From: Georgenia yuyongxinii
GTDB taxonomy: Bacteria > Actinomycetota > Actinomycetes > Actinomycetales > Actinomycetaceae
Reading direction: 5' to 3'
NCBI RefSeq assembly: GCF_006352065.1
Contig: NZ_CP040915.1
Coordinates: 930,001-994,000, forward strand
Length of the DNA: 64,000 nt
The position numbers and the translations under genes are program-made. The notes beneath the pieces were generated by a model, which saw nothing but the letters and a program-made list of their open reading frames with translations, did not search any database and was not told the DNA's origin. How positions within the stretch are numbered: position 1 is the stretch's first letter; the number at the start of each line of letters is the position of its first letter. Of the stretch, positions 41,560-58,993 are shown piece by piece.

Positions 41560-42645
41560 GTGGCCCTCACCATCGGAATCGCCGGACTGCCCAACGTCGG
41601 TAAGTCGACCCTGTTCAACGCCCTGACCCGGGCGACCGTGCTCGCGGCGAACTACCCGTTCGCGACGATCGAGCCCAACATTGGCGTCGTCCCGCTGCCG
41701 GACCCCCGGCTGGGGAAGCTCGCCGAGGTCTTCGGCTCCGAGCGTCTCGTGCCCGCGACCGTCTCCTTCGTGGACATCGCGGGCATCGTCAAGGGCGCGT
41801 CGGAGGGAGAGGGCCTGGGCAACCAGTTCCTCGCGAACATCCGTGAGGCCGACGCGATCTGCCAGGTCACACGAGTGTTCAACGATCCCGATGTGGTCCA
41901 CGTCGAGGGCAAGGTGGACCCCAAGGACGACATCGAGACGATCTCGACCGAGCTGATCCTCGCCGACATGCAGACCCTGGAGAAGGCCCTGCCGCGGCTG
42001 GAGAAGGAGGTGCGCGGCAAGAAGGTCGACCCGGAGGTGCTCGAGACCGCCAAGGGCGCGATGAAGCTGCTCGAGGAGGGCACGCTGCTCTCCGCCGGCG
42101 CCGCGCAGGCCGGGCTCGATCCGGAGGCGCTCGCCGGCTTTCAACTCATGACGACCAAGCCGTTCATCTACGTCTTCAACACCGACGACGCCGGCCTCGC
42201 CGACGAGGCCATGCAGGCGGAGCTGCGCGAGATGGTCGCCCCCGCAGACGCGATCTTCCTCGACGCCAAGTTCGAGTCCGAGCTCGTCGAGCTCGAGCCC
42301 GACGAGGCCGCCGAGATGTTGACCGAGAGCGGGCAGGACGAGGCCGGCCTCGACAAGCTCGCTCGCGTCGGGTTCCACACCCTGGGCCTGCAGACCTACC
42401 TCACCGCCGGCCCCAAGGAGGCCCGGGCGTGGACGATCCACAAGGGCTGGACCGCCCCGCAGGCCGCCGGCGTCATCCACACCGACTTCGAGCGTGGCTT
42501 CATCAAGGCCGAGGTCATCTCCTTCGAGCACCTCGTCGAGCTCGGCTCCGTGGCGGAGGCCCGGGCGCACGGCAAGATGCGCATGGAAGGCAAGGACTAC
42601 ATCATGCAGGACGGCGACGTGGTGGAGTTCCGCTTCAACGTGTGA
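41560..42645 (+). CDS. ychF: Redox-regulated ATPase YchF
   Basis: This 361-aa OBG-family protein has standard length. It opens IGIAGLPNVGKSTLFNALT (G1), with Switch II DIAGIVKGASEGEGLGNQFL and a coiled-coil insertion. A C-terminal TGS domain ends EGKDYIMQDGDVVEFRFNV. YchF prefers ATP and binds ribosomes. The start is a GTG. The last 19 bases of the gene form part of a 21-bp sequence repeated at 58972, which marks the attachment site of an integrated element. The coding sequence is not disrupted. Confidence 0.97.
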   Translation: MALTIGIAGLPNVGKSTLFNALTRATVLAANYPFATIEPNIGVVPLPDPRLGKLAEVFGSERLVPATVSFVDIAGIVKGASEGEGLGNQFLANIREADAICQVTRVFNDPDVVHVEGKVDPKDDIETISTELILADMQTLEKALPRLEKEVRGKKVDPEVLETAKGAMKLLEEGTLLSAGAAQAGLDPEALAGFQLMTTKPFIYVFNTDDAGLADEAMQAELREMVAPADAIFLDAKFESELVELEPDEAAEMLTESGQDEAGLDKLARVGFHTLGLQTYLTAGPKEARAWTIHKGWTAPQAAGVIHTDFERGFIKAEVISFEHLVELGSVAEARAHGKMRMEGKDYIMQDGDVVEFRFNV

Positions 42646-42647
42646 AT
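42627..42647 (+). repeat. attL core (end of ychF)
   Basis: This 21-bp core contains CGCTTCAACGTGTGAAT and includes the ychF stop codon. It matches 58972-58992 exactly; the next base differs (T versus C) before a shared GG. The paired arm motifs follow at 42687-42706. Confidence 0.88.
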
Positions 42648-43055
42648 TGGCGTGTTTGTGCAGGTCAGGGCGGTGTTGGACTCTTCCAGTCCGCACACAG
42701 TCCGCAGGAGTCTTAGCCCGACGGCTCGAGCGGGCTACTACGTAGGCAAGATCTCTGGAGCCGGTGCCTACGACTGGCACGGCTAGGCATGACCTCGGCG
42801 GCCGTGTGACGGATCCCCTCGACGTGCTGATCGCGGCAGATCCGGACGCTGTATCGCGGTCAGGCCCAACTGTGCATTGAATAGACCTCGTCACCAAGAG
42901 ACGCTTCACGCATCCGCTCATCAGCACGGCCGCGAGATGGCGAGGCGCGAGCCGGCGGCCAGTGCGCGGCAGATCCACGCCTCGTTGCCGCCCTCAGTGC
43001 GGCAGGATCGTGCGACGGCACGCCGCCTGCTAGCCCACGACGGCACCGGCGCTTG
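42648..43055. other. Left end of the element: arm sites, otherwise non-coding
   Basis: This 408-bp interval has the shared motif GTTTGTGCAGGTCAG (42654-42668) and two CAGTCCGCA copies (42687-42695, 42698-42706), probably integrase or excisionase binding arms. The remainder (42720-43055) shows no convincing gene. Confidence 0.6.
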
Positions 43056-43916
43056 CTACGCCCGGGTCGTGTCCGGGGGTTTGTCCTCCTGCGAGGGGCT
43101 GCTCACTTGGTTCGCCACGCCCGACGCGTCATCCTTCCGCCACTGGAGGCGCGGCAGCCGGTCTTCGGCGTCGTAGCGAGTGATCACCGTGTCTAGGGCC
43201 TCCCTGGCATGGGGCTGCCACGCGCGCATCTCCTCCGAGCCGCGACCGAACACGTCGACAAGTGCGCTGAGCATCTGAAGCGTGCCGCCGACCACGGCGA
43301 CCGCGTTATCGGCGCTGAACGCCACGTAGTGCCAGTCGACCCCGCGGTTGAGGTCGGGCCGCTCAACCGCGGGGCGGAAGTTGGCGTCCGCGTGGACGGC
43401 CCAGCCTCGGAAGCGGAACAGGTCGCTGATCCGTCGGCGATACTCGGGCACCGCGGCCGGGCGGACCTTCAGGTGATACCGCAGTGTCTCAAAGACGATG
43501 GTGTGGCGGGAAGTGCGGCGGCCGTTCGCCCGGGGCGTGCGCCACGTTTCGCGGTGTGGATGGTCCGGCGAGCGCGCCTGCACGGAGGCGTAGAAGGCGT
43601 CGACCGCGAAGGCCGCGGCGGAGATCGTTCGCATCGACGCGCGAAGCTCTGCATCTAGGAGATCTTGGAGGCCCTGCTCGTCGGTCGGCGGAGTCGGCCC
43701 AGCCAGTGCGCCCAACTCGGCCGCGATCGCCGCCCGCACGTCGAGCACGGCGATGGCGCCATCCACGGACTCGTGCAGCCAGTGCGGCCACATCTCGACG
43801 CGCAACTCCGGCGACACGGGGTCGACCTCGACCTGCCCGTCGTCGGTCATCCGGAACCCGAGCGACCCAGGAGCAAGACGCAACTGGGCGCCGCGCGGCA
43901 ACATGATGCCTGGCAT
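43056..43916 (-). CDS. Hypothetical cargo protein
   Basis: This 286-aa protein was not recognised. The ATG at 43916 starts MPGIMLPRGAQLRLAPG. The sequence is predominantly helical without membrane segments. Notable parts are VEMWPHWLHESVDGAIAVLD, a YRRRISDLFRFRGWAVHADA region with conserved-looking aromatic and charged residues, and a Lys/Ser/Thr-rich tail. It is the first gene inside the left end and is transcribed toward attL. Its place beside a defence pair suggests accessory function, which is inference only. Confidence 0.6.
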   Translation of the reverse strand: MPGIMLPRGAQLRLAPGSLGFRMTDDGQVEVDPVSPELRVEMWPHWLHESVDGAIAVLDVRAAIAAELGALAGPTPPTDEQGLQDLLDAELRASMRTISAAAFAVDAFYASVQARSPDHPHRETWRTPRANGRRTSRHTIVFETLRYHLKVRPAAVPEYRRRISDLFRFRGWAVHADANFRPAVERPDLNRGVDWHYVAFSADNAVAVVGGTLQMLSALVDVFGRGSEEMRAWQPHAREALDTVITRYDAEDRLPRLQWRKDDASGVANQVSSPSQEDKPPDTTRA

Positions 43917-44308
43917 GACGCCGAGACTAGGGCCACGCCGCCACGTGCACCGCGTTGCAGCAATCTTCCCGCACGGCGGTGAGCCGCACCGACGAGTGCC
44001 CTCAGCCGACGGTTGAAGCGGGCAGCGACAGCCCTCGCCTACGGCTCGGTGTGGCGGCAGGATGAGTACTGATACTCGTACCGGCCCAAGGTGACGATCA
44101 CCAACGGCAAGATGCTGGCGACGGGCATGGCGAAGGCGATCCGGGTCCGGCGCCCGCCCTAGCTGGGAGTTGCGCCGCAAGGTTTAAGGGCGAGCCTGTT
44201 CCTGTGTGTGCCACGACTCCATTCGTATCCGTGTGCCCGTCCGGCGGACGTTCCAAGAGCCGATAGAGTCAGGCTAGAGGCTGATCCGGAGTCGAGAGGG
44301 GGCGCACC
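43917..44308. other. Non-coding interval with a gene remnant
   Basis: These 392 bp lie upstream of the divergent unknown gene and the ATPase gene. A frame ending at 44162 reads YRPKVTITNGKMLATGMAKA but is broken by a stop upstream, so it looks like a short fragment. Promoters for both flanking genes should lie here. No RNA gene was seen. Confidence 0.4.
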
Positions 44309-45310
44309 GTGGCGACCAACGACCAGCTAAAAGCACTGGTCAAGAGCCATGCAGACGGTGATGATCCCCAGTTCTACTCCGTCGCGATGCAGGTTGCTGC
44401 GAAGGCTGCCCGGGCGGGGCAGTCAAAGTTCGCGCAGGAGCTGCGGGACCTCGTTGACGAACTGCGCCGGCGCGGGGCTGACAAGTCCCGCATTGCGTCT
44501 GTCGTCCCGGTCGCACAGCCGCGCGGTGAGCTTGCTTCCCTGCTGTCGGTTTCCTACCCCGACGCCCATCTGGGTGACCTGGTGCTGGCCGGCGACGTTG
44601 ACGACCGGCTCCGTCACGTCCTGCTTGAGCAGCGCCAGCGAGACAAGTTGGCGCGGCACGGACTCAGGCCCGCCCGGAGACTCCTCCTGATCGGGCCGCC
44701 GGGGACTGGGAAGACCTCCACGGCCCGCGTCGTCGCGGGAGAGCTCGGGCTACCGCTATTTGCGATCCGGCTCGACACGATCATCACGAAGTACATGGGT
44801 GAGACGGCAGCGAAACTGCGGCTCATCTTCGATGCGCTCGCCGAGACGCGGGGCGTGTACCTCTTCGATGAGGTCGACGCGCTCGCGGGGGACAGGGCGG
44901 CATCGAACGACGTGGGCGAGATCCGCCGTGTCCTCAACTCGTTTCTTCAGTTCCTCGAAGAGGATACGTCGCAGAGCATCATCATCGCTGCGACTAACCA
45001 CCCTGCCCTCCTGGACAACGCGCTGTTCCGGCGGTTCGACACCGTCATGGAGTTCGCGCTGCCGGACGCTGACAGTGCACGGGCCGTAATCGCCAACAGT
45101 CTTGCCGGGTTCCAGATCAGCAACCTGACGTGGAAGCGTGTCTTGGCGGCCGCCGAGGGCCTGAGCCATGCGGAGATCGTCACTGCGTCGGAGAACGCCG
45201 CCAAGCGCACCGTCCTTTCGGGCCGCTCTCGGATCCTGACCGATGACCTCGTTGGAGCGCTCCGAGAGCGCCCGCGGCGGCGTAGCAAGCAAGAGTCGTT
45301 GGGTGCATAG
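44309..45310 (+). CDS. AAA+ ATPase, IetA-like partner of subtilase
   Basis: This 333-aa protein has a helical N-terminal region (1-90) and one AAA+ module: Walker A IGPPGTGKTSTARVV (Lys135), Walker B VYLFDEVDALAGDRA, sensor 1 IIIAATNHPALLD and Arg finger NALFRRFDTVMEF. It resembles ATPases paired with subtilisin-like proteases in IetAS loci, described first in plasmid incompatibility and later as anti-phage defence. The protease gene starts 5 bp after its stop, so they form one operon. The GTG start follows GAGAGGGGG. The call rests on pairing and domain order. Confidence 0.85.
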   Translation: MATNDQLKALVKSHADGDDPQFYSVAMQVAAKAARAGQSKFAQELRDLVDELRRRGADKSRIASVVPVAQPRGELASLLSVSYPDAHLGDLVLAGDVDDRLRHVLLEQRQRDKLARHGLRPARRLLLIGPPGTGKTSTARVVAGELGLPLFAIRLDTIITKYMGETAAKLRLIFDALAETRGVYLFDEVDALAGDRAASNDVGEIRRVLNSFLQFLEEDTSQSIIIAATNHPALLDNALFRRFDTVMEFALPDADSARAVIANSLAGFQISNLTWKRVLAAAEGLSHAEIVTASENAAKRTVLSGRSRILTDDLVGALRERPRRRSKQESLGA

Positions 45311-45315
45311 GCGGT

Positions 45316-47862
45316 ATGGCCGAACGCGACCGCCCACACATCGTCATCTCCGCACCGCCAGACACCGAGGGCTTCACGTTCCCCAACAGGGGAGGCGCGC
45401 AGCGGCCGGAGTTCCCCGGTAGCCGGATCCGGCATGGCCGGCGGCTGAAGCGCGAGTTCGAGGACTCTTGGAAGGAAGCGGACGAGGATGAGGGCACCTA
45501 CATCACCTTCGAGTCGTTCCCGGGAATCGAGCTCGCGCTGGAGAGCCTCGACCCCCAGGCCTCCGGTGAGCAACCGGAACTGGTCGCAGTCCGCACGCGC
45601 ACCGTGGACGACCAGGTCGTGCAGGAGGCCACGGTCTACATCCCGTTTGGCAAGAAGGAGTATTTCCTCAAGCGGCTCACCAAGTACTTAGAGACTGCGC
45701 AGAACGATTCGGTCAAGAACGCCAAGCTCGTGGAAGCGATCAGCTCCATCCGGCGGGCGACCATCCGAGAGCTGTGGACCGACCCGGACGAGCAGTTCCC
45801 CAGCGACCCCACCCAGCCGCACTGGTGGGAGGTATGGCTGCGCAAGCGTGACGGCCGGGAGCAGGAGCGGTTCACTGTCTTCGCCGGGAGCCACCAACTT
45901 CGGACGAGCGCGCACTTCCTCGGGTTCAACGACCGGACGGTCATCCTCCTGAACGCGACAGTTAAGCAGCTGGCACAGACGTTTGAGGCACTCGACGATA
46001 TCGCCGAGCTGCGCCGCCCGCACGACGTCTCGAGCTTCGTCACTGAGCTACCCGCGGCCGAGCAGAGAGAGTGGGTCGACGACCTGCTCTCACGGCTTCA
46101 GACCGCGGGCCCGGGCTCACCGGTGGTGTGCGTCCTGGATACGGGAGTCCAGGACGGTCACCCGCTGCTTGCCGGCTCGCTGGATCCCGCTGACATTCAC
46201 GTCGCGGACCCCAACTGGTCGCTGCGGCCCACGAACCCGCACGGGACGGAGATGTCCGCGCTCGCCCTGTACGGCGACCTGGCCGCCGCGGTCACGAGCC
46301 AACACCCGGTCCGGCTGGAACACCGTCTCGAGTCGGTCAAGATCTTGCCCGACCGCGGCGACAACGAGAGGGATCTGCTGGGAGCCATCACGGCTCGCGC
46401 TGTGGACCGGCCGGAGATCGAGGCGGCCGGTCGGCCGCGTGTCTTCATGCTCGCGGTGACCGCCACGCAGGGCCCGGTGACCAGCGACGTCAACGGCCGG
46501 GACGGAGCGCGCGGTGAAGCAGGCAAGCCGACCTCGTGGTCTGCCGCTCTGGACGCGCTGGCGTTTGGCCGTGCCATCGACGACAGCGACGCTCAGCTGA
46601 CCTACCTGGATCGCGACGAGCCGCGCCGACCTCGCCTCTTCGTCGTGTCGGCTGGGAACATCCGCGACCTGCAGCCAGGTGATGATCACCTGGCCCGCAG
46701 CGACCTCGAGCTGGTCGAGGATCCAGCGCAGGCGTGGAATGCCCTCAGCGTCGGTGCGTATTCGCCCAGAGACGACATGGCGGGTGCGCCGTCCGAGTTT
46801 GCCGGTTGGGTGCCGGTCGCACCTCGGGGCGAGCTGGCGCCCAGCAGCCGGACTTCGGTGTCCTTCGACCGGAAGAGCTGGCCGTTCAAGCCCGAGGTCG
46901 TCGCCGACGGCGGGAACACCGCGGTCTCACCGGATCGCACGGAAGTCGACACACCACCGAACCTCGCGCTGCTGACCACCAGGATGCAGCGCATCGGGGA
47001 GGGCTACTTCACCACAACGCGCGATACGTCTGCTGCGACCGCCCAGGTCGCCGCGATAGCTGCGGACATCGCCGCGGCGTATCCGGACCTGCGTCCGGAG
47101 ACCGTCCGCGCCTTGGTCGTTCACTCCGCGGAGTGGACCGAGGCGATGAGAGGGCACTTTTCCGGCGCGGCAACGAGGGCTGCCGTCGTGACGCTGTTGA
47201 GGCGATACGGCATGGGCGTCGCGGACCGGGAGCGCGCACTCCGTTCCGCTGTCGACGCGCTGACGCTGGTGGCTGAGTCCCAGTTGCGCCCCTTCGAGCA
47301 CGAAGGCAGCGGCGACGGCAGGACACGGGAGATGAACCTGCACCGGCTACCGTGGCCGTCGGAGGTTCTCGAGCAACTCGGCGCCGAGGACGTGCGCCTG
47401 CGCGTCACGTTGTCCTACTTCATCGAGCCGAACCCGTCGAGCCGCGGCTGGAACGGCCGGTACGCCTACCCCTCCTTCGGGCTCCGGTTCGCAACCAAGC
47501 GTGCGGAGGAGAGCGTCGACGCATTCCGGCGCCGGATCAACGCTAGGGCGCGCGACGAGGGACACAACACCACATCGCGCGGGACAGAGAGCGGGTGGCT
47601 CCTCGGTGCGGAGCAACAGCAGGCGGCTGGGTCCATCCACACCGATATCTGGACCGGCAGCGCTGCCGACCTGGCAAGCAAGGGTGTGATCGCGGTGTAC
47701 CCGGTCGCGGGATGGTGGAGGCGGCGGCCCCGGCTCGACCAGAGCGACCGTGGTGTCGACTACTCCCTCGTGCTCAGTATCGAGTCGCCCAACGTCGAGG
47801 TCGACCTGTGGACGCCGGTGATGCAACAGATCGCGACGCCGATCGAGATCGAGACCAGGTAG
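45316..47862 (+). CDS. Subtilisin-like S8 serine protease, IetS-like
   Basis: This 848-aa cytosolic protease has no signal peptide. About 260 N-terminal residues without a known domain precede the S8 fold. The catalytic triad is visible: Asp275 in VVCVLDTGVQDGHP, His309 in PTNPHGTEMSALAL, Ser572 in TTRDTSAATAQVAAIAA. The oxyanion Asn448 lies in FVVSAGNIRDL. A C-terminal region of about 250 residues (LRVTLSYFIEPNPSSRGWNG onward) may recognise substrate. Coupling to an AAA+ ATPase matches IetAS. Residue 125 uses the rare TTA codon. Confidence 0.88.
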   Translation: MAERDRPHIVISAPPDTEGFTFPNRGGAQRPEFPGSRIRHGRRLKREFEDSWKEADEDEGTYITFESFPGIELALESLDPQASGEQPELVAVRTRTVDDQVVQEATVYIPFGKKEYFLKRLTKYLETAQNDSVKNAKLVEAISSIRRATIRELWTDPDEQFPSDPTQPHWWEVWLRKRDGREQERFTVFAGSHQLRTSAHFLGFNDRTVILLNATVKQLAQTFEALDDIAELRRPHDVSSFVTELPAAEQREWVDDLLSRLQTAGPGSPVVCVLDTGVQDGHPLLAGSLDPADIHVADPNWSLRPTNPHGTEMSALALYGDLAAAVTSQHPVRLEHRLESVKILPDRGDNERDLLGAITARAVDRPEIEAAGRPRVFMLAVTATQGPVTSDVNGRDGARGEAGKPTSWSAALDALAFGRAIDDSDAQLTYLDRDEPRRPRLFVVSAGNIRDLQPGDDHLARSDLELVEDPAQAWNALSVGAYSPRDDMAGAPSEFAGWVPVAPRGELAPSSRTSVSFDRKSWPFKPEVVADGGNTAVSPDRTEVDTPPNLALLTTRMQRIGEGYFTTTRDTSAATAQVAAIAADIAAAYPDLRPETVRALVVHSAEWTEAMRGHFSGAATRAAVVTLLRRYGMGVADRERALRSAVDALTLVAESQLRPFEHEGSGDGRTREMNLHRLPWPSEVLEQLGAEDVRLRVTLSYFIEPNPSSRGWNGRYAYPSFGLRFATKRAEESVDAFRRRINARARDEGHNTTSRGTESGWLLGAEQQQAAGSIHTDIWTGSAADLASKGVIAVYPVAGWWRRRPRLDQSDRGVDYSLVLSIESPNVEVDLWTPVMQQIATPIEIETR

Positions 47863-48310
47863 CACGAGCCGACGTGCCCGACCCAGCGCGCTGCACGTGC
47901 TTCGGCGCGTGGGTGGCCTCCTGATGGACAGCGCAAAGCGGAGCGCCCAGTAACTGGGCCTAGAACCGTTGGACAACGGTTGAAACCTGTTCGAGGGATG
48001 CGCCGAAAACCGTCCGGCTAAGTCGAGAATCGTTGAGATTCTGCTAATCCTGCTGGTCGGGGATGCTCGCCGACGAACCAGAAACCACTGCGCTATGGGA
48101 CGGCAGACAACTCGGATCTTGGAGAGAAGGTGAGAGCTTCAAGTCCCTCAGCCTGCAGTGACTCCCGGTGAACCGGTCAACCGGTTCCGGCGCTGGGCCG
48201 CCGGCCGCCGGTCATCGGCAGATCCGCGCGTCCAGCACCCCGCGCTGGACGCGCACAGGCGGCGAACGAGGCGACGCCCGGGGCGGTACATCTGCGATCG
48301 AAGCCACTGC
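47863..48310. other. Non-coding interval with four small palindromes, beside the integrase 3' end
   Basis: These 448 bp lie between the protease and integrase genes. Perfect small hairpins are GCCCAG-TAA-CTGGGC (47944-47958), AACCGTT-GGAC-AACGGTT (about 47963-47980), GAATC-GTTGA-GATTC (48027-48041) and GAACCGG-TCAA-CCGGTTC (48170-48187). They may be terminators or recombination sites. The stretch around 48130-48160 faintly resembles a tRNA T-arm, but no tRNA can be built. Confidence 0.5.
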
Positions 48311-49432
48311 TCACCCGCCCGTGCTCGCCGCCAACTCGGCTGGGGGCGTGGCAGGCTCGCCGAGCGACACGGACATGATCGACTCCGCTGCCTTCCTCGT
48401 GCGGTCCTCGGCCGTGGGCCAGAGGTGGGCGTAGGTGTTGAGGGTCGTTGTCGCCTTCGAATGGCCGAGCGAGCGCTGGACGGTCACGACGTCGCATCCG
48501 GCCGCGATGAGCCCAGAGGCGTAGAAGTGCCGGAGGTCGTGGAGCTTGATCCCGAACAATCCGGCGTCGCGCAGCGTCTTGCGCCACCAGTAGGCGACAG
48601 TGTTCTGGTGTGGCGGGCCCTTCTCCTCGCCGGCGAAGAGCCAGCGATTTTTGCCTGTGGTGCCGTACTTGGCGACGTGCTTGGCGAGCACGTTGACCAG
48701 GCCGTCGGCGACGTAGACCACGCGCTCGGAGCCGTACTTCGGTGCTCGGACGTCGATCTCTCCGCCGTTGAGGCGCTGGACCTGGCGGGACACCTTGAGT
48801 GTCTTGCGTAGGACGTCCACGTCGCCGAGTTGGACTCCAGCGGCTTCGCCGAGCCGCAGGCCGGCGAACGCGCAGAGGGCGATGAATGGCTGGAACCGTT
48901 CGTCGGCCGCGGTCATGAGTCGGCCCACCTCCTCCGGGGTGGGGATCGACATGGCGACGTCCGCGCGACGTCGACGGGGGAGGCGTACGCCGTCGGTCGG
49001 GTCGGAGCCGATCACCCTGTCCTTGACGGCGGCGCGGAACACCGACCTGACGTTCACGTACCGCGTCTTGATCGTGCCGGGGGCGAGGCCGCCGGCGTTC
49101 ATCTGCTTGATCCAGGCCTCGACGTCGGATCGGCGGACCTGCCTAATCGGCTTCCCCGCGAAGGGCGTCGACCCGGCCTCCAGCGACATCGCGAGCACGG
49201 TGTTGTGTGCCCAGACCTGGCGGGCCGACCACTCGCCGAAGTAGGCGGCGAACGTGATCCGTCCGGCCTGGGGATCGGCGTACGTGCCGGTGACCACGGC
49301 GGAGGTGACCTGATCCAGCCACTGCTGGGCATCGATCTTGCGATCGAAGTGCCGTGAGTGTTCCTTGCCGGCCTCGTCGCGGTACCGCGCCCGCCACTTG
49401 CCGTTCGCCCGTTTGGCGATGTTCCCCGCCAT
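48311..49432 (-). CDS. Tyrosine-type site-specific integrase
   Basis: This 373-aa phage-type integrase has an AP2-like N-terminal arm-binding domain (KWRARYRDEAGKEHSRHFDR), a SAM-like core-binding domain (about 60-150) and the catalytic domain: Arg in CAFAGLRLGEAAGVQL, His-x-x-Arg in KLHDLRHFYASGL, RSLGHSKATTTLNTYAHLWP with the nucleophile Tyr. All key residues are present, so it should be active. It is the only integrase in the element. The excisionase-like gene lies 57 bp upstream on the same strand. Confidence 0.95.
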   Translation of the reverse strand: MAGNIAKRANGKWRARYRDEAGKEHSRHFDRKIDAQQWLDQVTSAVVTGTYADPQAGRITFAAYFGEWSARQVWAHNTVLAMSLEAGSTPFAGKPIRQVRRSDVEAWIKQMNAGGLAPGTIKTRYVNVRSVFRAAVKDRVIGSDPTDGVRLPRRRRADVAMSIPTPEEVGRLMTAADERFQPFIALCAFAGLRLGEAAGVQLGDVDVLRKTLKVSRQVQRLNGGEIDVRAPKYGSERVVYVADGLVNVLAKHVAKYGTTGKNRWLFAGEEKGPPHQNTVAYWWRKTLRDAGLFGIKLHDLRHFYASGLIAAGCDVVTVQRSLGHSKATTTLNTYAHLWPTAEDRTRKAAESIMSVSLGEPATPPAELAASTGG

Positions 49433-49489
49433 GACGATGCTCCTTCCGGGATGACTCCATGGTTCTCCGAGATCGGAGGACGAGGGGTG

Positions 49490-49729
49490 TCAGCGGTGGT
49501 TCTGTGGACGGCTGGCTTGCTCGGTGAGCCAGCGGATGAGGTCGGCGCGCCAGTAGCGGACGTGGCGGCCGATCTTGAAGCTGTGCGGTCCGGCGCCGAG
49601 GTGGCGCCAGTAGCGCAGGGTGCCTTCGGGGATGCGGAGGAAGGCGCAGGCCTCCTGGAGCGTGAGCATCTCGTCGCCGGGGTTCTTCATGGGGCGGTTC
49701 TCGATGGGGTTGGTCGGTGATGCGGTCAT
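49490..49729 (-). CDS. Excisionase-like MerR/HTH-17 DNA-binding protein
   Basis: This 79-aa protein has a winged-helix HTH typical of Xis/AlpA-like factors: LTLQEACAFLRIPEGTLRYW, then GPHSFKIGRHVRYWRADLIR. The ATG at 49729 has GAGGAG upstream. It precedes the integrase on the same strand, as excisionases often do. It probably directs excision by bending DNA at the ends. A regulatory role is also possible. Confidence 0.85.
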   Translation of the reverse strand: MTASPTNPIENRPMKNPGDEMLTLQEACAFLRIPEGTLRYWRHLGAGPHSFKIGRHVRYWRADLIRWLTEQASRPQNHR

Positions 49730-49815
49730 GGTCGTTGCTCCTCGGGGCTCGACCCGCCTGGGCCGCTGGCCGGTGCCTCCGGCTTCACTAGGAGGTGTGT
49801 ATGGCGCACCGATCG

Positions 49816-49830
49816 ATGATCGGGGATCAT
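49816..49830. promoter_or_regulatory. Candidate operator between xis-like and XRE genes
   Basis: ATGATC-GGG-GATCAT is a perfect palindrome lying 6 bp before the XRE gene start and 87 bp upstream of the divergent xis-like gene. Its place fits an autoregulatory site of the XRE repressor. Confidence 0.5.
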
Positions 49831-49836
49831 TGAGCC

Positions 49837-50466: not shown

Positions 50467-53041
50467 GGCTGCGGTCGCAGGCGGCCGTGGCTGGTCGACG
50501 GCGTTGGGGGCCGTAGCGGTCGATCGCCTCGCGTGCCTGGCGGCGCGCCATCGCTGGGCCGAGGTCGGCGCGGTCGCGGCTGAAGATCTCGATCCACTGA
50601 CCGCGGGCGACGTCGACATTCTCGGCGACGAGGTGAGCGACGTTGGTCTGCCGACCGCGGGTCATGGCGACGTACGCCGATGCGGCGCCGGTGTGTTCGC
50701 CGATGGCGACGTGGGCGTTCGTGACGGTGCTGCCCTGGGCGCCGTGGACGGTGGTGGCGTAGGCGAGCTCGACGAACCGTGCCGCGTAGGCCGCCGGGAT
50801 CTCCCGGTCCCGCCCCCGACCGTGGAGATGCAGGCTGCCATCCTTGCCGACCCGGGTGACGGTCCACGTCTGGCGGTTCGCGACCTGCAGGGCGGGATCG
50901 TTGCGTCGGGTCGCGACGCGGTCTCCGATCCCGATCCGGTCGCCGCCGGCGGTGGTGATCTCCGTGTGCGCGCGCTCGTGGCGCCGGTGGTGCCGGATGG
51001 CCGCGTTGAGGTCGGCGACCTGTTCGCGCGTGTCGGCGATGACGAGATCGCCGCTAGCGCCGGCGTCGGCGAGGACGGCGGTGCGTTCGACGTCGGAGGC
51101 GTGAATCGCGATGTGTCCGCCGCGGCGGAGGGCGTCGAACACCCGACCGGCGTCGTCGCCCATGCGCATGCGCAGACTCAACGCTGCGTACTCGGGATCG
51201 GCGAACCGGTGCACCTTCTCCAGGGTGACGGCGGCGGTCGGGTGCGCCCACGCCGCCGCGTGGTCCAGCACCCCGCCGCGCCCGACGGCGGGGAGCTGGT
51301 GCCGGTCTCCGACGAACGCAACGCGTGCCTCGGTCTCGTCGGCGATGGTGAGCAGCGCCCCGGCGGTGTCTTGGTCGAGCATCCCGGCCTCGTCGATGAG
51401 CAGCAGGTCACCGGCCTGGAGCTGGGCGCTCGGATCGAGCGCTGGGTTCGGCTGGCGGCCCCATTGGCCGTCGGCGTCCCAGCGCCATCCGTGCTGGTGG
51501 ATCAGCCAGGCGGCGGAGTGACCGTCAGCGCCGGTCTCTGCGGCTGCGACCTCGGCGGCCTTCAACGTCGGCGTCACGACCATGAGCCGATGGCCCCTGA
51601 GGGACAGCAGCCCCCGAGTGAACCGAAGCGTGGTGGTCTTTCTAGCACCCGCAGCGCCTTCGACCACCACGAGTGGTCCGTCCCCTGCCAGGGCACCGGC
51701 CACGGCGGCTTGGGTGGGGTCGATCCGGACCAGGCCGCGTCCGCCCACGCGGACCCTGCGGGCCGGCTGAGCCGCCCGGCGTGCGATCCGGGCGACGATG
51801 TCGGCCTCGACCTCGAGCACGTGCGGTGAGCTGAATGATCGGATGTGCTCGGGCACATCGGCCCGGTTGAGCAACGTGACGCACCGGCTGGCGGCCCGGG
51901 CGGTGATGTCCTCGGCGAGCTCGGCTCGCGCGGCCGGGTCGGCGAAAAGACAGGTCTGTGCGAGGAGGACCTCGGTCTTCCCGCGGATGTCCGCGGTGTT
52001 CCAGGCCGACCTCCTCGCCCCGAGGATGGTGACGACGAGGTCTGCAGCGACATCGCGGTCGATCCAACCCGGGCGTGGACCTGCCAGCGGAACGGATCTC
52101 GTGGGGTCGCGGTAGCCCAGCTCGCGCAGCTCGCCGTTCCAGCGGGCCACGAGCTCCTCACCGTCCTTCGGGACGACCTTGTCGGGGCGGGCTTCTGCCC
52201 ACGCCCTCCGGTCCCACACCTCCCGCAGCCCGGGACCCGGCTCATCGCCGGGGTGCTTGCTGCGCCAGTCGGCTTCGTAGCGGTCCACGTTCCGCCGGAT
52301 CTGTGCGGTGCGCGCGCTGAACGCCCCGACGTACGAGACCAGCTGGCGAATCTCGCTCGTCTCCGGATCGAGCGTCATCCCGCGCGCCGCGAGCACCGAC
52401 CGGAATCGCGGGTCGGTCGCGACCGCGGCATGGCCGATGCCGTTGAGCGCCTCGATACTGTCGCGGACTCCTACGGAGTGGATACCGCGCCAGGCGCCGG
52501 CCGCGTCGACGCGGGCGTTGATCTGGAGATGAAGATGCCGGTGCGGATCACCAGCACGCGAGGTGTAGTGCCGGATGACCGCGGCCTCGATCCGCTCGAC
52601 CGGTACCTGCACCTGCCGCCCACGCGGCCCGACTCGCGTCGTTGCGTGCTGGGCGACCCAGCTGACAATCTCGGCGGCGGCTTTGTCCTGGGCGGCGTCC
52701 AGCGCGGCAGAAATTTCTGGATGAAGCGCGGCGGCCAGCGACCAGGTCTTGGGTCCGTTGACGGTAACCTCGACGAACCGCAGCGCGCTCGCGTCCTTGC
52801 GGACCCAGCCCTGCGGGCGGCCGGTGTCGACGTCGATGCCGGCGACCCACTGCTCGTAGGTTTCGCCGTCCATCGAACCCGCGTGTTCGACGCTCTCCGG
52901 CGTCGCGGTGAGTCGCTCGGCGACGCCGGTTCCTTCACCGAGGTAGTAGTCGTCAGCCCGGGATCGATCGCGCTCGACGTAGGCCCGGGCGGCTTTCGCC
53001 GCGCCGCGGTAGAACTTCACCCCACCGTGCACCCGGACCAC
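50456..53041 (-). CDS. MobF-family relaxase/helicase (TrwC/TraA-like), Walker A altered
   Basis: This protein is about 861 aa. Start GTGs at 53041 or 53032 follow GGAGG and open the usual VHGGVKFYRGAAKAARAYVE. Candidate nucleophile tyrosines are in RADDYYLGEGTGV. The metal His cluster is RAGDPHRHLHLQINARVDA (about 163-180). A RecD-like helicase follows, with Walker B LLLIDEAGMLD and motif TTVHGAQGSTVTNAHVA. Walker A reads VEGAAGARKTTTL, with Arg467 where Gly is expected. It would nick oriT and pilot the strand. It lacks long C-terminal regions of larger TraI proteins. Confidence 0.92.
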   Translation of the reverse strand: MVRVHGGVKFYRGAAKAARAYVERDRSRADDYYLGEGTGVAERLTATPESVEHAGSMDGETYEQWVAGIDVDTGRPQGWVRKDASALRFVEVTVNGPKTWSLAAALHPEISAALDAAQDKAAAEIVSWVAQHATTRVGPRGRQVQVPVERIEAAVIRHYTSRAGDPHRHLHLQINARVDAAGAWRGIHSVGVRDSIEALNGIGHAAVATDPRFRSVLAARGMTLDPETSEIRQLVSYVGAFSARTAQIRRNVDRYEADWRSKHPGDEPGPGLREVWDRRAWAEARPDKVVPKDGEELVARWNGELRELGYRDPTRSVPLAGPRPGWIDRDVAADLVVTILGARRSAWNTADIRGKTEVLLAQTCLFADPAARAELAEDITARAASRCVTLLNRADVPEHIRSFSSPHVLEVEADIVARIARRAAQPARRVRVGGRGLVRIDPTQAAVAGALAGDGPLVVVEGAAGARKTTTLRFTRGLLSLRGHRLMVVTPTLKAAEVAAAETGADGHSAAWLIHQHGWRWDADGQWGRQPNPALDPSAQLQAGDLLLIDEAGMLDQDTAGALLTIADETEARVAFVGDRHQLPAVGRGGVLDHAAAWAHPTAAVTLEKVHRFADPEYAALSLRMRMGDDAGRVFDALRRGGHIAIHASDVERTAVLADAGASGDLVIADTREQVADLNAAIRHHRRHERAHTEITTAGGDRIGIGDRVATRRNDPALQVANRQTWTVTRVGKDGSLHLHGRGRDREIPAAYAARFVELAYATTVHGAQGSTVTNAHVAIGEHTGAASAYVAMTRGRQTNVAHLVAENVDVARGQWIEIFSRDRADLGPAMARRQAREAIDRYGPQRRRPATAACDRSLSL

Positions 53042-53599
53042 CGCCTCCGCGAACGTCCGTCGACAACCAACGGACCCCCAGAAATGCCATGTGGGCCGCC
53101 CGATCACGGGCGACCCATCTACGTCCTTCGTAGCATGCGTGCCGCTCGATGGGGAGTGCCGCTCGATGGGGAGTGCCTGAACTTGGTTGCGAAGCAATCG
53201 GTGGGAGCAGCTTTTTGGGGCCGTGGAGAGCCAACGATTTCCAGTGAGAACTAGAGATCGGGCACTGCCGCCACGCGAGAGTGGTTCCTTCACGAGCGGA
53301 TCAAGGAGCATTGGACGCAGACAGGCCCCATACGTGGCTCCAATGCGGGACGCGCCGCCGGTCGGGTCTTACGGGACGCTCGACGTGTGACGGCACCTCC
53401 TGGTGGGGCGAGCCTCCGCTGGTGATTCGGCCATCGGGACAGCGGAGATGGGCGAGCATTGCCAGCGCTAGGATCGCGGCATGACCGGACGCCGCATTCT
53501 GTTTGGCGGCACGCTCGCCGGCGCTAGGCAACTGCCCTGGTCGGGCGGGCCGATCGAGCGGACAAGCTGTTGACACTTGACGGGGCGTAGGAACCGGAG
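53042..53599. other. Relaxase upstream region, candidate oriT
   Basis: These 558 bp lie upstream of the relaxase and of the right cargo. A tandem pair of GCCGCTCGATGGGGAGT (53141 and 53158) sits 100 bp before the relaxase start, where oriT is often found. No gene is convincing, and the rest shows no clear feature. Confidence 0.4.
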
Positions 53600-54922
53600 A
53601 TGTACGCGTGGTCGATTCGGTTCGTGCATCCTGAGCCAGTGACGACTCCGCGTGCAGGTCGGTTGGTGACCTCGCTAGATGTTCTCGATGACTTCTTCGG
53701 CGGTCTACCGGGTGCGGGCGCAGCCAAGAGCCTGACCCTTTCTCAGATCGACGAGTTGGGCGAGATGGTGAACACGACGGCCGCAAGACTGTCGAGGATG
53801 CAGCCCAGCACGGAATTGATCGGCGACTTGGTCTACCCGGGAGGCTGGCTAGGCAACGGCTGGCAGGACGAAATATTCCGGAACGAACTCAACTGCGCCC
53901 TCCTTTACGAGCCACGCTTGCTCGTGCACGACCCACTTGCTGAGTACTTCTTCTCGGACTTCAACCTGCTACCAGAGGTGGCCTTGGAAGGGCGGGGAGG
54001 GACGCAGGTCGTGGCTGGCGCCCGAATGTGGGCGAACCACGGGCGGCGAGTGCATCGAGGTGACGACGTCGAAGGGATCCGCGCCGACCTCGACTCCATT
54101 CTTGGAGTCCTGAACCTGTTTGAACCACTCATCCGAAGCGGCGTGATCGTAATGCGCAGCCAGTTCCCGATCCTCGAGAGGGAGCGGCATGCGTTGGCCG
54201 CCTCCGTACGTGCCGACCTCCGTTCCGCACCCACGGTTGCCACCGTGGCCCGTACCGAAGGGCTGCCACTCCCTCGCTGGGACAACCTGCGTGGCCTGCA
54301 AGTTACGCCGCCCGGAGGGCTCCTGGACCCTAACGACCGTGCGCAGTGGGAACCCGAGTTCTACTACCTCGCAAAGACCTTGATGTTCAGCCGCTCCGCC
54401 GCAGCTCTCTACGCCCCGGCCAGCGACAATGAGTTGGCGCTCCTGCAGACGAAGAGCGCCGAGTATCTCAAGGGGAAACGCTCGTTCGCCCCGAGCCAGC
54501 CGCTAATCCAGGAGGCGCTTCGTACGATGGCGCCGGACATGCGACTGGATCCCGTTACAGCCGTCAAGGTGCGCAGTTCGGAAGAGGCGTTCAACGCATG
54601 GCGCCAAGAATTGCGCACGTTGCAGCGCGCCAGCGTGGGCGTCGCCGACGCCGACGTCCCGCAACTCGTCAAGGACATGATGCAGCCGAAGGTCGACGAG
54701 GTGTGGAAGGCGGTCTCGAAGTCCGCCGTGTTGAGCCGGCGTGCACCCAAGAACCTCGGTCTGGCGCTCATCACGGGCATCGGTGCCCTGCCCGGTGGAC
54801 TGGCCGCGGCGGCGGCTGCCGCCGCAGCGACCGGTGTCGGCGGATACTTAATGGACACGTTCGTTCGCCGCCAACTCGACGGCAGTAAGCCCGTGATCGC
54901 AGCGCTCCTGCACCAAAACTAA
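53600..54922 (+). CDS. Hypothetical cargo protein with C-terminal glycine/alanine hydrophobic hairpin
   Basis: This 440-aa protein matches no family I recognise. Residues 1-380 look soluble and mixed helical, with LSRMQPSTELIGDLVYPGGW and WEPEFYYLAKTLMFSRSAAA. Near 393-425 there is a small hydrophobic hairpin (LALITGIGALPGGLAAAAAA, then TGVGGYLMD), which could insert into a membrane. The start ATG at 53600 has a weak ribosome site. Residue 417 uses TTA. It opens the right cargo block, whose base composition is less GC-rich than the core chromosome. Confidence 0.65.
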   Translation: MYAWSIRFVHPEPVTTPRAGRLVTSLDVLDDFFGGLPGAGAAKSLTLSQIDELGEMVNTTAARLSRMQPSTELIGDLVYPGGWLGNGWQDEIFRNELNCALLYEPRLLVHDPLAEYFFSDFNLLPEVALEGRGGTQVVAGARMWANHGRRVHRGDDVEGIRADLDSILGVLNLFEPLIRSGVIVMRSQFPILERERHALAASVRADLRSAPTVATVARTEGLPLPRWDNLRGLQVTPPGGLLDPNDRAQWEPEFYYLAKTLMFSRSAAALYAPASDNELALLQTKSAEYLKGKRSFAPSQPLIQEALRTMAPDMRLDPVTAVKVRSSEEAFNAWRQELRTLQRASVGVADADVPQLVKDMMQPKVDEVWKAVSKSAVLSRRAPKNLGLALITGIGALPGGLAAAAAAAAATGVGGYLMDTFVRRQLDGSKPVIAALLHQN

Positions 54923-55194
54923 GCGCCAAGGTACAGGCAGGCAATTGCTTCATTGGCCCCGCGCTGGGCTCACGCACACCGGCTCACCCCGGCTGCCGTA
55001 CCAAGACCGCGCGACCGCGTCGAGGATGTGGGCCTTTCAAGTGGGAGGCTCGACGCCACCGAGTTATCCGAACGGTATGGTGCAGCTCACCCTCATTTGC
55101 TGCTCCTGGCCTTTGCTTGCCTTGTCAGGTAAGACCCGCGATCGGAAAGCAAGACGAGCCCAATCGAGACCCCGAAAGACGTAAGGATTCAGAA

Positions 55195-57333
55195 GTGACA
55201 GACGCAGTAATCAATGATGACTACGTTCAGTCGTCCGATGCGCTTCTTGATGGTGGCTATGCGCTCATCGGTGCAGTTTATAGCCTCGTCAAGTTGCAGG
55301 GAGCGGCAACAAAGCGCGACCTCATACTCGCGGCCGCATCCCACGCACTACGCGGTGGTGATAAGACCGCAACAGAGGTCGGATCCGTCGTCAGTCAGGT
55401 TTGGCCAGGAGCGCGCACCGACCAATCGTCCGTCGACGAAGCACTCGCTGTCGGGCGGGAACTAAACCTTATGGCCCCAGTGGAGGGTCTGGACGGCGCT
55501 GTGCTTTGGCGGCTGACCGCCCTAGGCTCCGACGATGTCGACCGTCAGAGCGACTGGGTACACTTGATCAAGGACGCAGCGATCAAAGAGCTTCAGAGTC
55601 GCGCACAATCCGACAGTGGTCGGAGTGTCGATTATGAGACGGCGGAGCTGTGGCTAGAGCGAATCGTGGGCGGTCTTATCGTCGGGATCACTGCCTCGCA
55701 AGATGCATATCTGGGCCGTGTTGAGCATCTCATCACGCAACGACTCTCGCCTCGTGGTATCGATCAGAGTGTTGTGCTCGCAAAGATCGCCGCGTCAACT
55801 TCTGATCCTGACGTCGTGGCATTTCTCCAGGCTTGCGCGATAGCAGCTCTTGATCCGCTGGATCCCTTTGGTGCCGAGTTGGTCAGCCACATCACGACTG
55901 GATGTGTCTTGCATTCGTACATTGCGGGGCGGGACTCCGCAGTGGTGCTTGACAATCTGGGAACCCCGCGCGGTCAACGCGCTCTTCTTGACACACCCGT
56001 CCTCGTCGAGCTCATCGGCCCGGTTCGCGTCAACGAACCTGCTAGAACCTCCATCCGTGCGGCTGTCGCGGCTGGGTGGGAAGTAGTGGCATGCGATCAC
56101 ACGCTTGAGGAATTGATAGCGCTGACTGAGCGCGAGGTGCCACGCATCAGGGAGAGCCTCAGGAGAGCTCATAATCAAGGCGTGCGCGCCGAATGGTATG
56201 CATCACTGGTAGCCGACCAACTGCCGAGCTACTGCATTGAGGCGCTTCAAGACGGCACGTACTCGTTGATCGAGCAAATGATCGAGGCCGCCAAGGCGAT
56301 GGTGGATACTCTCGCAGAATTGGGAGTCACAGTTCGGCCGCACTTCAACGACCAAGACGCACACTACGTCAGCCGATGCAAGGACGCACTCGAGAAAGTC
56401 CTCGAAGGCGTTGGTGTTGGCCGATCGGCTGCGGTCATTCAGCGAGACGCGGATTCCATGGCGATGGTGTGGCGCCGGCGACGTAGAGAAACACCGAAGC
56501 GCGCATGGCCTGGTGGCTGGATCATCACTCCTGACAGGCACATGGCCACAGCATTTCGCTCATTGGATCGGGCGGATTCAGTGCCACTGACGCTATCGCT
56601 ACCCCAGTGGATGATGATCCTGTCGGTCACGGTGCCACCCGCCGAGGTCGTTGATCTCGCATCGGCAGCTGCACTGCAACTTGTCGAAGAAGCGATGTGG
56701 TTGCTGCCATCTCGCTTTCCGAGCGACGTCGCGATGGACCTTGCCAAGCAGATCTCTCCCGATCATGGCGGGTCGGCAACAGATCTTCGCTACGCCCAAC
56801 TGACACTAGACGCGGCACTGAACGGTGACGGTGGACCGCGCTCCGCTACCTCGATGGCCGCGGAAGTGCTCGAATCCCGTAACAGCCGGCGCGATCGGCA
56901 GAATGCGCTCGCGCTAGCGCGAGCCAAACGAGCGGAGACTGACGCGGGTCGTGAGGCGGACGCGGCTCGACGGATGGCCTCTGAGCAGAAGCGCATCGCG
57001 GATGAGGCGACGAAGGAGTCCCAAACATCTATCCAGAGGATGGAGGCGCTGAGGCAGCAATTAGCATGGGCGGGCATTCGGACCAAAAGAATTGTAATCA
57101 CGCTCATCTGTGTCTTCGTGGGCGTAGTGCTAGGCGTCGGAGCGTGGCTGCTCGGAGTTGGGTACGTCGCCATCCTTGGGGCGCTCGGCGGGCTCGTCGT
57201 TGTAGGCGTCGGCGGGTACAGGTGGTGCAAGTCGGCTGAGGCAAAGCTGCTTCCGCTTCTGGTTGGCGCGGGTGTGGAGGTGATCTCGCTGGCGAGTGCT
57301 CTGGTCGGACTGTTTGTTGCGAACGGAGGTTAG
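55195..57333 (+). CDS. Large hypothetical protein: PIN-like domain, coiled coil, C-terminal membrane helices
   Basis: This 712-aa protein was not recognised as a whole. Residues 1-250 are helical. A PIN-like region begins at QRALLDTPVLVELIG (Asp266), continues with VVACDHTLEELIALTEREVP and ends near GGWIITPDRHMATAFRSLD, the pattern of acidic residues expected of a PIN nuclease. Residues 570-630 form a coiled coil (ALARAKRAETDAGREADAAR). Helices from about 633 to 712 cross the membrane two or three times. The GTG start follows TAAGGA. Codon use is AT-richer than core genes and residue 623 is TTA. A membrane-tethered nuclease effector is a plausible inference. Confidence 0.65.
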   Translation: MTDAVINDDYVQSSDALLDGGYALIGAVYSLVKLQGAATKRDLILAAASHALRGGDKTATEVGSVVSQVWPGARTDQSSVDEALAVGRELNLMAPVEGLDGAVLWRLTALGSDDVDRQSDWVHLIKDAAIKELQSRAQSDSGRSVDYETAELWLERIVGGLIVGITASQDAYLGRVEHLITQRLSPRGIDQSVVLAKIAASTSDPDVVAFLQACAIAALDPLDPFGAELVSHITTGCVLHSYIAGRDSAVVLDNLGTPRGQRALLDTPVLVELIGPVRVNEPARTSIRAAVAAGWEVVACDHTLEELIALTEREVPRIRESLRRAHNQGVRAEWYASLVADQLPSYCIEALQDGTYSLIEQMIEAAKAMVDTLAELGVTVRPHFNDQDAHYVSRCKDALEKVLEGVGVGRSAAVIQRDADSMAMVWRRRRRETPKRAWPGGWIITPDRHMATAFRSLDRADSVPLTLSLPQWMMILSVTVPPAEVVDLASAAALQLVEEAMWLLPSRFPSDVAMDLAKQISPDHGGSATDLRYAQLTLDAALNGDGGPRSATSMAAEVLESRNSRRDRQNALALARAKRAETDAGREADAARRMASEQKRIADEATKESQTSIQRMEALRQQLAWAGIRTKRIVITLICVFVGVVLGVGAWLLGVGYVAILGALGGLVVVGVGGYRWCKSAEAKLLPLLVGAGVEVISLASALVGLFVANGG

Positions 57334-57955
57334 AAATCGGGTCGTCGCTCGTCGGATGAGGGGAGGTGTCTATTCCGACCGGGGCCTCCAAGGGCGCAAC
57401 TACAGACGGCCCCCTCGGCATTCGGCTATCCGGACCTTGAATGAGACCGTGTGGGCTATGAGGGAATTACTGTTCCAGATCCTTCCCCTCCGAGTTGTGC
57501 GCTGCTCCTGAGCGGGCGGTCCCGCAATACGCACCTGTTCTTTTGGGTCCGGTGGTGCCGCGACTCTGGTTTAGGTGGCTCTCCGCTCGTCGGGGCTGTA
57601 GCTGTTGCGTTAAGTGCATCCAGCGTGGAAAGCCGAAGCTTAGTCGGGCTAATAGTTGAATCTTGCGGACCCGGGTCGCCGGGGTTGAAAGTATCGAGCC
57701 AACGCCTGAGTGGAAGTGGAGCGTATTCCCTCTCTCCATTCGAGCCGTGGTATCTGTGCGGGGTGAGTATGAGTGGTCGCCGGGTTTGCCGGCCGCGTAG
57801 GCAAGGCCTCGCGGGTGCGGCGGCGCGTTCGCGCACAAGGTCGCACTCTTACGGTTCGTCGCCCTCGTACAGAAGTAGCACCTTGTGTTGGTCGCGCTCG
57901 TGGTAGGCGCGTCTCTCCTCCATGCTCGCCGCCGCCCCCGTGGAACTCTTGCGGG
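57334..57955. other. Non-coding interval in right cargo
   Basis: This 622-bp gap lies between the PIN-like gene and the nuclease gene. No frame has a ribosome site or recognisable protein, and no tRNA is present. The length and lower GC content leave room for a promoter, a small RNA or a decayed gene. Confidence 0.4.
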
Positions 57956-58768
57956 GTGAGCGACAGAGATGCGATGACGGTTTGGGAACTGCTCCGGGAG
58001 TACGCCGCGACACAGTCCGGGTCCTTCACCTCGCAAGAGGCGCTCTCATGGTTCCGTCGCCACGCGCCTGACAAGGCCAACGAACGGAACATCCGCACTC
58101 ACATCCGCGGAGCCTCCTGGAACGTGGGTAACCGCCCGCAGTTCTCGACCAAGGAGCCGTTCCTTACCAAGCTCGACCGAGGTCTGTTTTGGCGAGCGCG
58201 TCTCGACGAGATCGAAGGCTGGCGGGCAGATGTACCCACTCCAACAGTTGAGCCGATGCCGGCTGCCCCGGCGGAGGGGCACTTAGTGTCAGAATGGCAC
58301 ACGGAGGACAATACCCAGCGCCTTCTCGTCGAATGGCTCGCTGGCGAGGGGTGGACTATCGCCCGAACGGCGAATACGGCCACACGAGAGCACGGCGTGG
58401 ATGTGGTTGCCGAGCGAGAGGGGCAGCGCCTCGGGGTTGAGGTGAAGGGCTACCCGTCTCGCTTCTATGTCACCGGCCGGAAGAAGGGCCAGGTGAAGAC
58501 CAGCACGCCCAAGGAGCAAGCGAAGAAGTGGTACGCGCATGCGCTCGTCCCGGCAATTCGCCTTCGGACCCACGAGCCTGACTCCGTGTCGGTGATGTGC
58601 TTCCCCGACTCCCGTGTGTACCGGCCGCTGTACGCGGACACCGCTTTGTCGTTGCGCGCAGCAGGCATCGACGTCTGGTTGGTCTCGCAGGATGGTGCCG
58701 TTGAGATTCTCGGCCAGTCCTCGCTGCCGGGGGAACGGCTCGACGCGAGGGTGCAGTTCGGACTCTGA
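57956..58768 (+). CDS. Winged-helix plus PD-(D/E)XK nuclease-like protein
   Basis: This is a 270-aa protein. Residues 1-80 form a winged-helix-like domain common in restriction-related proteins (TVWELLREYAATQSGSFTSQ to LTKLDRGLFWR). Residues 115-265 hold a PD-(D/E)XK core: TQRLLVEWLAGEGWTIARTA, Asp149 in EHGVDVVAE, Glu162-x-Lys164 in GVEVKGYPSRF. This resembles restriction or repair endonucleases of the Mrr/NERD type. The GTG at 57956 or ATG at 57974 may be used. It is the last gene before attR. Residue 110 uses TTA. A cognate methyltransferase is absent. Confidence 0.75.
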   Translation: MSDRDAMTVWELLREYAATQSGSFTSQEALSWFRRHAPDKANERNIRTHIRGASWNVGNRPQFSTKEPFLTKLDRGLFWRARLDEIEGWRADVPTPTVEPMPAAPAEGHLVSEWHTEDNTQRLLVEWLAGEGWTIARTANTATREHGVDVVAEREGQRLGVEVKGYPSRFYVTGRKKGQVKTSTPKEQAKKWYAHALVPAIRLRTHEPDSVSVMCFPDSRVYRPLYADTALSLRAAGIDVWLVSQDGAVEILGQSSLPGERLDARVQFGL

Positions 58769-58824
58769 GGTCGACGCGATCGCCGCCGAGTTCGACCAGA
58801 TGCGAAGGGGCTCCCCGCCTCCCG

Positions 58825-58914
58825 CAGTCCGCAAACAGTCCGCAAGAAGTCCGGCGGAGCCCGATGAGCACCAACGAGACTCAACGGTCCGATAGTGACG
58901 TTCGTGCAGGTCAG
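58825..58914. repeat. Right arm motifs of the element
   Basis: CAGTCCGCA occurs at 58825-58833 and 58836-58844, the same 11-bp spacing as the pair at 42687. GTTCGTGCAGGTCAG at 58900-58914 matches the left-end motif at 42654. All are in the same orientation as the left copies. Confidence 0.8.
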
Positions 58915-58971
58915 AGCATGTTTTCGGTGTTTTCCGACGATGGCCGAAAACTACCAGATACCTCCGGAATC

Positions 58972-58992
58972 GTTCCGCTTCAACGTGTGAAT
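58972..58992 (+). repeat. attR core (copy of ychF 3' end)
   Basis: This exact 21-bp copy of the ychF terminal sequence contains CGCTTCAACGTGTGAAT. The sequence to its right is an IS21-family transposase fragment rather than an obvious chromosomal gene. Confidence 0.88.
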
Positions 58993-58993
58993 C

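Follow-up and report, generated by a model that had tools for sequence, protein, structure and literature searches.

A putative mobilizable element with an exchangeable defence slot at the 3′ end of ychF in Georgenia yuyongxinii

In the actinobacterium Georgenia yuyongxinii, the last codons of ychF hold one copy of a 21-bp direct repeat, GTTCCGCTTCAACGTGTGAAT, whose second, exact copy lies 16.3 kb downstream, and the unit that the two copies enclose (42627–58992; hereafter E1) is likely an integrative mobilizable element (IME) with an exchangeable slot for defence genes. Positions refer to the window, that is, the whole 64,000-nucleotide stretch analysed (930001–994000 of the single 4.17-Mb contig), unless marked as genome positions. 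No third match to GTTCCGCTTCAACGTGTGAAT was present in the window with up to three mismatches allowed, and none arose in 100 shuffles; extended to 24 nt, the two copies differ by one mismatch. The preliminary description of this DNA had reported this repeat together with a pair of arm motifs of 11-bp period and an inner motif, GTGCAGGTCAG, at each end, and all of these features hold. The paired motif AGTCCGCANNNAGTCCGCA, with at most one mismatch, occurs at 42688 and 58826 only (0 expected), and GTGCAGGTCAG is found nowhere in the window but at the two places given in Table 1; the half-motif CAGTCCGCA has one additional, unpaired copy at 45587. A chance origin of the repeats was rejected on the basis of these window-wide searches and shuffles.

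The tyrosine integrase, excisionase-like gene and relaxase that had been recognised between the repeats each gave domain matches (Table 1). The integrase, relaxase and helix-turn-helix (HTH) reading frames of E1 are open, and by eye the integrase and relaxase carry what we take to be their expected catalytic motifs. In the excisionase-like open reading frame (ORF), the HTH_17 domain occupies residues 98–148, so that the true start may lie further in. Coupling protein, mating pore, Rep and phage structural matches were all absent among the scanned E1 ORFs. On the attL side of the integrase, an IetA-type ATPase and an IetS-type peptidase are encoded by adjacent genes in the order IetA–IetS (PADLOC), and this pair (44309–47862) is predicted to form an IetAS anti-phage system: it resembles that system in combining an AAA ATPase with an S8 peptidase in the same order, but it is divergent and stays below the curated NCBIfam cut-offs (217.8 of 510 bits for IetA, 40.6 of 900 for IetS).

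Table 1. Features of E1 and its flanks (window positions; E-values unless stated otherwise)
Feature	Position	Strand	Match or remark
ychF, target gene, last codons hold core	41560..42645	+	YchF-GTPase_C 3.1e-39
attL core of E1, 21 bp	42627..42647	+	exact repeat
GTGCAGGTCAG, inner motif, left end	42658..42668	+	
Left arm pair, 11-bp period, core 60 bp away	42687..42706	+	
ORF without family match, cargo	43056..44180	-	
IetA-like AAA ATPase, defence cargo	44309..45310	+	PADLOC IetA 1.5e-76
IetS-like subtilase, defence cargo	45316..47862	+	PADLOC IetS 5.7e-32; Peptidase_S8 1.3e-48
Tyrosine integrase	48311..49432	-	Phage_integrase 3e-21
Excisionase-like HTH_17 ORF	49490..49960	-	HTH_17 5.2e-12; TIGR01764 6.6e-4, below cut-off
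HTH regulator	49837..50466	+	HTH_31 2.8e-9
MobF relaxase-helicase	50456..53311	-	TrwC 3.3e-53; NCBIfam MobF 117.4 bits, cut-off 100
ORF without family match, cargo	53600..54922	+	
ORF without family match, cargo	55117..57333	+	
DUF7669 and weak Hjc-like nuclease match, cargo	57773..58768	+	1.8e-20; 1.8e-4
Right arm pair, 147 bp ahead of attR core	58825..58844	+	
GTGCAGGTCAG, inner motif, right end	58904..58914	+	
attR core of E1, 21 bp	58972..58992	+	exact repeat
Rest of array inside window: broken IS21-type istB, then RibD_C, glyoxalase, others	58993..64000		array continues to genome ~1009999

Nine Georgenia genomes were compared (G000–G008, G000 being that of the window). As anticipated in the preliminary description, an empty site exists in a congener: ychF of G001 carries a single core and, at the looseness used, no arm pair. 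The integrase–excisionase–HTH–relaxase backbone is also present in G002 and G007, where 4.9 kb are 87% identical at the DNA level and the cargo differs. In G005, attL and attR are in place and 283 of 373 integrase residues are covered by a match, with no relaxase match. Support for the boundary at 58992 comes from G002 and G005 (loci L088 and L102 in the integrase survey below), each of which has one attL and one attR in equal geometry. G008 has a left end and, 5.5 kb on, 64 bp that repeat the end of ychF, with no recombinase match on the contig; G004 has a left end only, and G003 has 1.9 kb of extra DNA without arms. Core copies with longer pieces of the ychF tail than the 21 bp of E1 were seen at L173 (the 64-bp copy of G008), L093, L129 and L130. 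The attL–attR span of G006 measures 38 kb and contains six other tyrosine-recombinase matches (G006:C1:480792–500365) and no cognate integrase. Some of these matches recur elsewhere in the genome in groups of three, presumably akin to what are called recombinase-trio elements.

The core and arms recur past the right end of the window, and 58992 is therefore the right end of a first unit only: the att-bounded unit of the preliminary description stands, whereas its right boundary is not the end of the inserted DNA. E1 forms the first 16.3 kb, proximal to ychF, of an insert of ~37.4 kb that contains seven core-like copies (genome positions 972628 in ychF, 988973 as attR of E1, 996448, 999489, 1000050, 1007619 and 1009981), four right-arm ends and one integrase gene. 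Right arm pairs stand 147, 147, 147 and 148 bp ahead of the cores at 988973, 996448, 999489 and 1007619, respectively, and the spacing is likewise 147 or 148 bp at the right ends of G002, G005, G006 and G007. Left arm pairs accompany only the cores at 972628 and 1000050. The latter, inner left-type core (genome 1000044–1000060) follows GGTGGAG, just as the core within ychF does, and in this departs from an ordinary tandem junction. At 1009981, the last core, GTTCCGCCCAACGTCTGAG, is degenerate and has no right arm pair; its flank, AACGTCTGAGCC, is common to the empty site of G001, which sets the inserted length at ~37.4 kb. Homology between G001 and G000 sets in ~19 bp past the ychF stop of G001 and at 1010007 of G000, and no comparable last core was found beside that DNA in G002, G003, G004, G007 or G008.

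The integrase of E1 is the sole tyrosine recombinase match between genome positions 972.6 and 1010 kb, where serine recombinase matches number zero. Altered cores are found at 996448, 1000050, 1007619 and 1009981. The unit 1000050–1007619, with a left-type and a right-type end, altered cores and no recombinase, has the make-up of a cis-mobilizable element (CIME; this term and IME are used as in the accessible text of the review PMC5704250), whereas the units ending at 996448 and 999489 possess right arms only and thus lack the attL of a CIME. Identity is 81–92% among the four right ends of G000 and 78–93% among all nine compared, which rejects inner right ends that are recent copies of one another and points to separate or old events. 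The inner units have the look of elements that came before and decayed, and E1 probably arrived last, its predecessors of the same att type having been reduced to integrase-less remnants.

One scan of species genomes yielded 76 related integrase loci (L labels), among which L130 and L131 are identical in sequence. With ychF called at E 1e-30 or better, the gene is located 3′ of the integrase and points towards it at 42 of the 76 loci (at most 250 bp away in 23, farther in 19), and overlapping stretches add L082, L084 and L129. Integrases of this clade are thus linked to the 3′ end of ychF at 45/76 loci, in favour of the association for which the preliminary description had proposed a search. 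Five further loci have a ychF-type core near the integrase and no full ychF (L093, L097, L130, L131 and L133). Other loci use different targets: glnA (L139–L142, L152, L157), yajQ (L121, L124, L126–L128), a gene of the enoyl-CoA hydratase family (L106, L143) that we assume from its C-terminus to be menB-like, the gene for RNase P RNA (L134, L138) and a DUF4870 gene (L110). L136 has a full RNase P gene at its far end and a 20-nt copy of the 3′ part beside the integrase; the same Mycobacteriales metagenome-assembled genome (MAG) carries a second integrase of the family at ychF (L104). No target gene was assigned at nine loci (L083, L087, L098, L117, L137, L149, L151, L153 and L154). Pfam or Rfam confirmed the targets of L139, L152, L157, L127, L128, L106, L143, L110 and the three RNase P loci, and the remaining glnA and yajQ loci were named from identical 3′ ends.

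Copies of the target end were also found away from ychF. The glnA end recurs as an exact 27-nt copy at 9.0 kb in L139 and 9.6 kb in L140, as a 29-nt copy with one mismatch at 10.1 kb in L142 and as a poorer copy at 2.6 kb in L152, and the yajQ end recurs in L127 and L128 as runs of 17–18 nt with one mismatch. Such copies were absent from the glnA loci L141 and L157 and from L106, L143 and L110, and none in L121 or L124 was convincing. In the integrase tree (63 rows: the window and 62 loci with a segment of at least 195 residues; rooted for drawing only), 34 ychF rows and five ychF-core rows all fall inside one 46-row group (support 95/83), which additionally holds seven unlabelled rows, L110 included. 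The yajQ rows (five) and glnA rows (four) form one group each; neither the RNase P rows nor the menB-like row belong to the ychF group.

Arm pairs were scored across these loci as motifs of 11-bp period with 8 or 9 of 9 bases at most 110 bp from the gene end. Such a pair stands at 35 of the 42 ychF sites and at 47 of 59 sites over all targets, compared with 0.9% in mononucleotide shuffles. Pairs of the AGTCCGCA type occur at ychF, glnA, yajQ, menB-like, RNase P and DUF4870 sites, and other arm motifs are found among ychF users, namely TTCGTCAG in Pseudonocardiaceae, CGTCCGCAG in Mycolicibacterium and GGGCCGTC in L108 and L111. At ten loci (L088, L102, L105, L107, L112, L116, L118, L145, L146 and L156) an attR-like core is accompanied by a like pair, and at L113, L123, L125 and L150 such a core stands without a scored pair; within the DNA stretches examined, no attR-like core was found at the remaining loci. 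In L133, a AGTCCGCA-like right arm and a core are followed by a left arm of another kind next to the integrase, an arrangement that we interpret as an accretion junction with two arm codes.

A relaxase match is present at 18/76 loci, including L106, L117 and L149, which are not linked to ychF. The stretch between ychF and the integrase was sampled as 49 ORFs of at least 120 aa from 15 loci at which the two genes are separated, and a control set of 49 ORFs upstream of ychF was chosen among 79 at 15 loci that only partly coincide with these. At 1e-5, the slot ORFs matched 293 PADLOC families and the upstream ORFs 21, figures that serve as a rough guide because redundant PADLOC models inflate the number of families; the commonest upstream match was an RmuC-type model (6 ORFs). 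When 19 proteins from 11 loci were scanned singly, strong matches comprised Gabija GajA and GajB (L089), a CBASS cyclase with a SAVED-HNH effector (L092), NsnA and NsnB (L096), SIR2 and HerA (L100) and the candidate system PDC-S39 (L105), the last being a protein in the slot of an Agrococcus element (L105:10990–13071, 6.5e-205). L091 has IetAS-like genes by similarity to those of E1. Within the integrase–excisionase–relaxase branch, the attL–integrase slot is thus predicted to hold varying defence systems (IetAS, Gabija, CBASS, SIR2–HerA, NsnAB). A Multiubiquitin-domain protein was seen in the slot of a Nocardioides MAG (L085:6606–7157), and a ThiF match was given by one ORF of the 49.

The reading of E1 as an IME draws on repeats beyond chance, the empty site of G001, the shared backbone, the linkage to ychF, the conserved arm pairs, a MobF relaxase above its cut-off, the defence systems of relatives in the same slot and the single recombinase of the array. 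E1 has the sequence features expected of such elements: direct repeats with an empty site in a relative, an integrase and a relaxase of its own, and, among its scanned ORFs, of which two matched nothing, no coupling protein or mating pore of its own. We propose that the integrase binds the arm pairs and that attP would recombine with the last ychF codons at or near TTCAACG; a crossover in these codons would leave the YchF protein unchanged. The excisionase-like protein may assist the reversal of integration, the relaxase would nick an origin of transfer (oriT), and transfer would proceed via the mating machine of another element. The stretch between attL and the integrase would act as a slot for exchangeable anti-phage systems.

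Several observations weigh against this reading. The excisionase match is weak, and neither an excised circle nor transfer nor an oriT of E1 was seen in the sequence analysis. Strong defence matches came from five of the 11 singly scanned loci, L086 was weak, and slot proteins of L085 (two proteins), L088, L090, L094 and L122 had no match at 1e-10. Three internal right ends have no adjoining left arm and the inner cores are altered, which makes the stack of earlier elements a reconstruction. Finally, a strict attL pattern, whose hits are pattern matches and which misses other arm codes, was found in 1/396 phylum genomes (that of G000 itself) and in 8/396 order genomes from 6/110 genera, with 0 in reversed-pattern controls. 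The family of E1-type integrase elements is broad but thin.

The inner units could alternatively be working passengers, moved by the E1 integrase in trans or together with E1. Their right arms and the 147–148-bp spacing are preserved, the unit 1000050–1007619 has both types of end, and G006 and G008 both have att-flanked inserts that lack a cognate integrase, the one in G008 with a left end and a copy of the ychF tail. However, three inner junctions are without left arms and four cores are altered, and we consider this explanation doubtful. It is improbable that E1 itself arrived mobile and has since become an immobile remnant, unable to excise or transfer: it stands among decayed units, and in relatives such as G005 the relaxase is gone and the integrase match incomplete, but the E1 cores are identical over 21 bp and its integrase, relaxase and HTH frames are open. 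The alternative of a prophage or phage satellite at ychF was rejected as highly improbable for E1, since its PHROGs integrase and excisionase-type matches and the satellite prophages described just upstream of pneumococcal ychF (accessible text of PMC10383233 and PMC8637289) are set against the lack of any structural or packaging match in seven E1 proteins compared with PHROGs, 1843 phage records that match the integrase all below 60% identity (~30% among the matches listed) and only eight matching viral contigs, one at 50% and the others at 30% or less.

As an IME, E1 resembles the canonical members described in the accessible text of the 2017 review (PMC5704250) in having its own integrase and relaxase without a mating pore and, presumably, in leaving the target gene product unchanged; it differs in its MobF relaxase, which according to that text no canonical IME known by 2017 had, in its fixed defence slot and in its ychF target. 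Actinobacterial integrative and conjugative elements (AICEs) likewise combine a tyrosine integrase with the 3′ end of a conserved gene; as far as the accessible text of PMC3218068 goes, however, they carry FtsK-like Tra and Rep proteins and nearly always occupy tRNA genes, the pSLS subfamily being the exception among those with tyrosine integrases, whereas E1 has a MobF relaxase and a protein-gene target. An assignment of E1 to the AICEs was rejected, there being no FtsK/TraB or Rep match in its scanned ORFs. The array recalls CIMEs and accretion islands (PMC5704250, same text) in its att-flanked stretches without integration genes beside an intact element, although most of its inner units lack a left end too. 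The pneumococcal prophages are also tyrosine-integrase elements adjoining ychF, but in the accessible text of PMC8637289, PMC10383233 and PMC6375853 they are phage-type elements of Firmicutes with an upstream intergenic site and another core.

No report of the ychF 3′ end as an integration target was found in the open-access literature, subscription papers being mostly outside the scope of the search; the accessible text of PMC13046425, PMC5726852 and PMC6951406 names ychF merely as a marker or core gene. Our best reading is that E1 and its relatives represent a new family of MobF IMEs. To a wider proposal we would give an even chance: an undescribed actinobacterial MobF-type mobilizable family, with one integrase lineage, would keep its arm code (paired AGTCCGCA) while the target changes (ychF, glnA, yajQ, menB-like, RNase P RNA), and change the arm code under a constant target among ychF users; in the ychF branch the attL-side slot would be a socket for interchangeable anti-phage systems, and the integrase may also move stacked integrase-less passengers. 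Besides tRNA genes, actinobacteria would offer a class of landing sites at universal genes, namely their 3′ ends, and an integrase family that switched target yet kept its arm sites would offer a natural series on how tyrosine integrases acquire targets. The slot would be a fixed place to seek known and new defence systems, and a ychF-specific integrase could be developed into a tool for the genetics of Georgenia, Nocardioides and their relatives.

Two features of the remaining cargo and flank may be added. The neighbouring cargo ORFs at 53600 and 55117 gave no relatives of solved structure, and a search of 119 order genomes returned no relative of the latter from the 118 besides its own; by eye, its C-terminus contains hydrophobic stretches. 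Just past attR of E1, an IS21-type istB remnant in two pieces occupies 59855–60543 (genome 989855–990543), preceded by a stretch that appears istA-like by eye.

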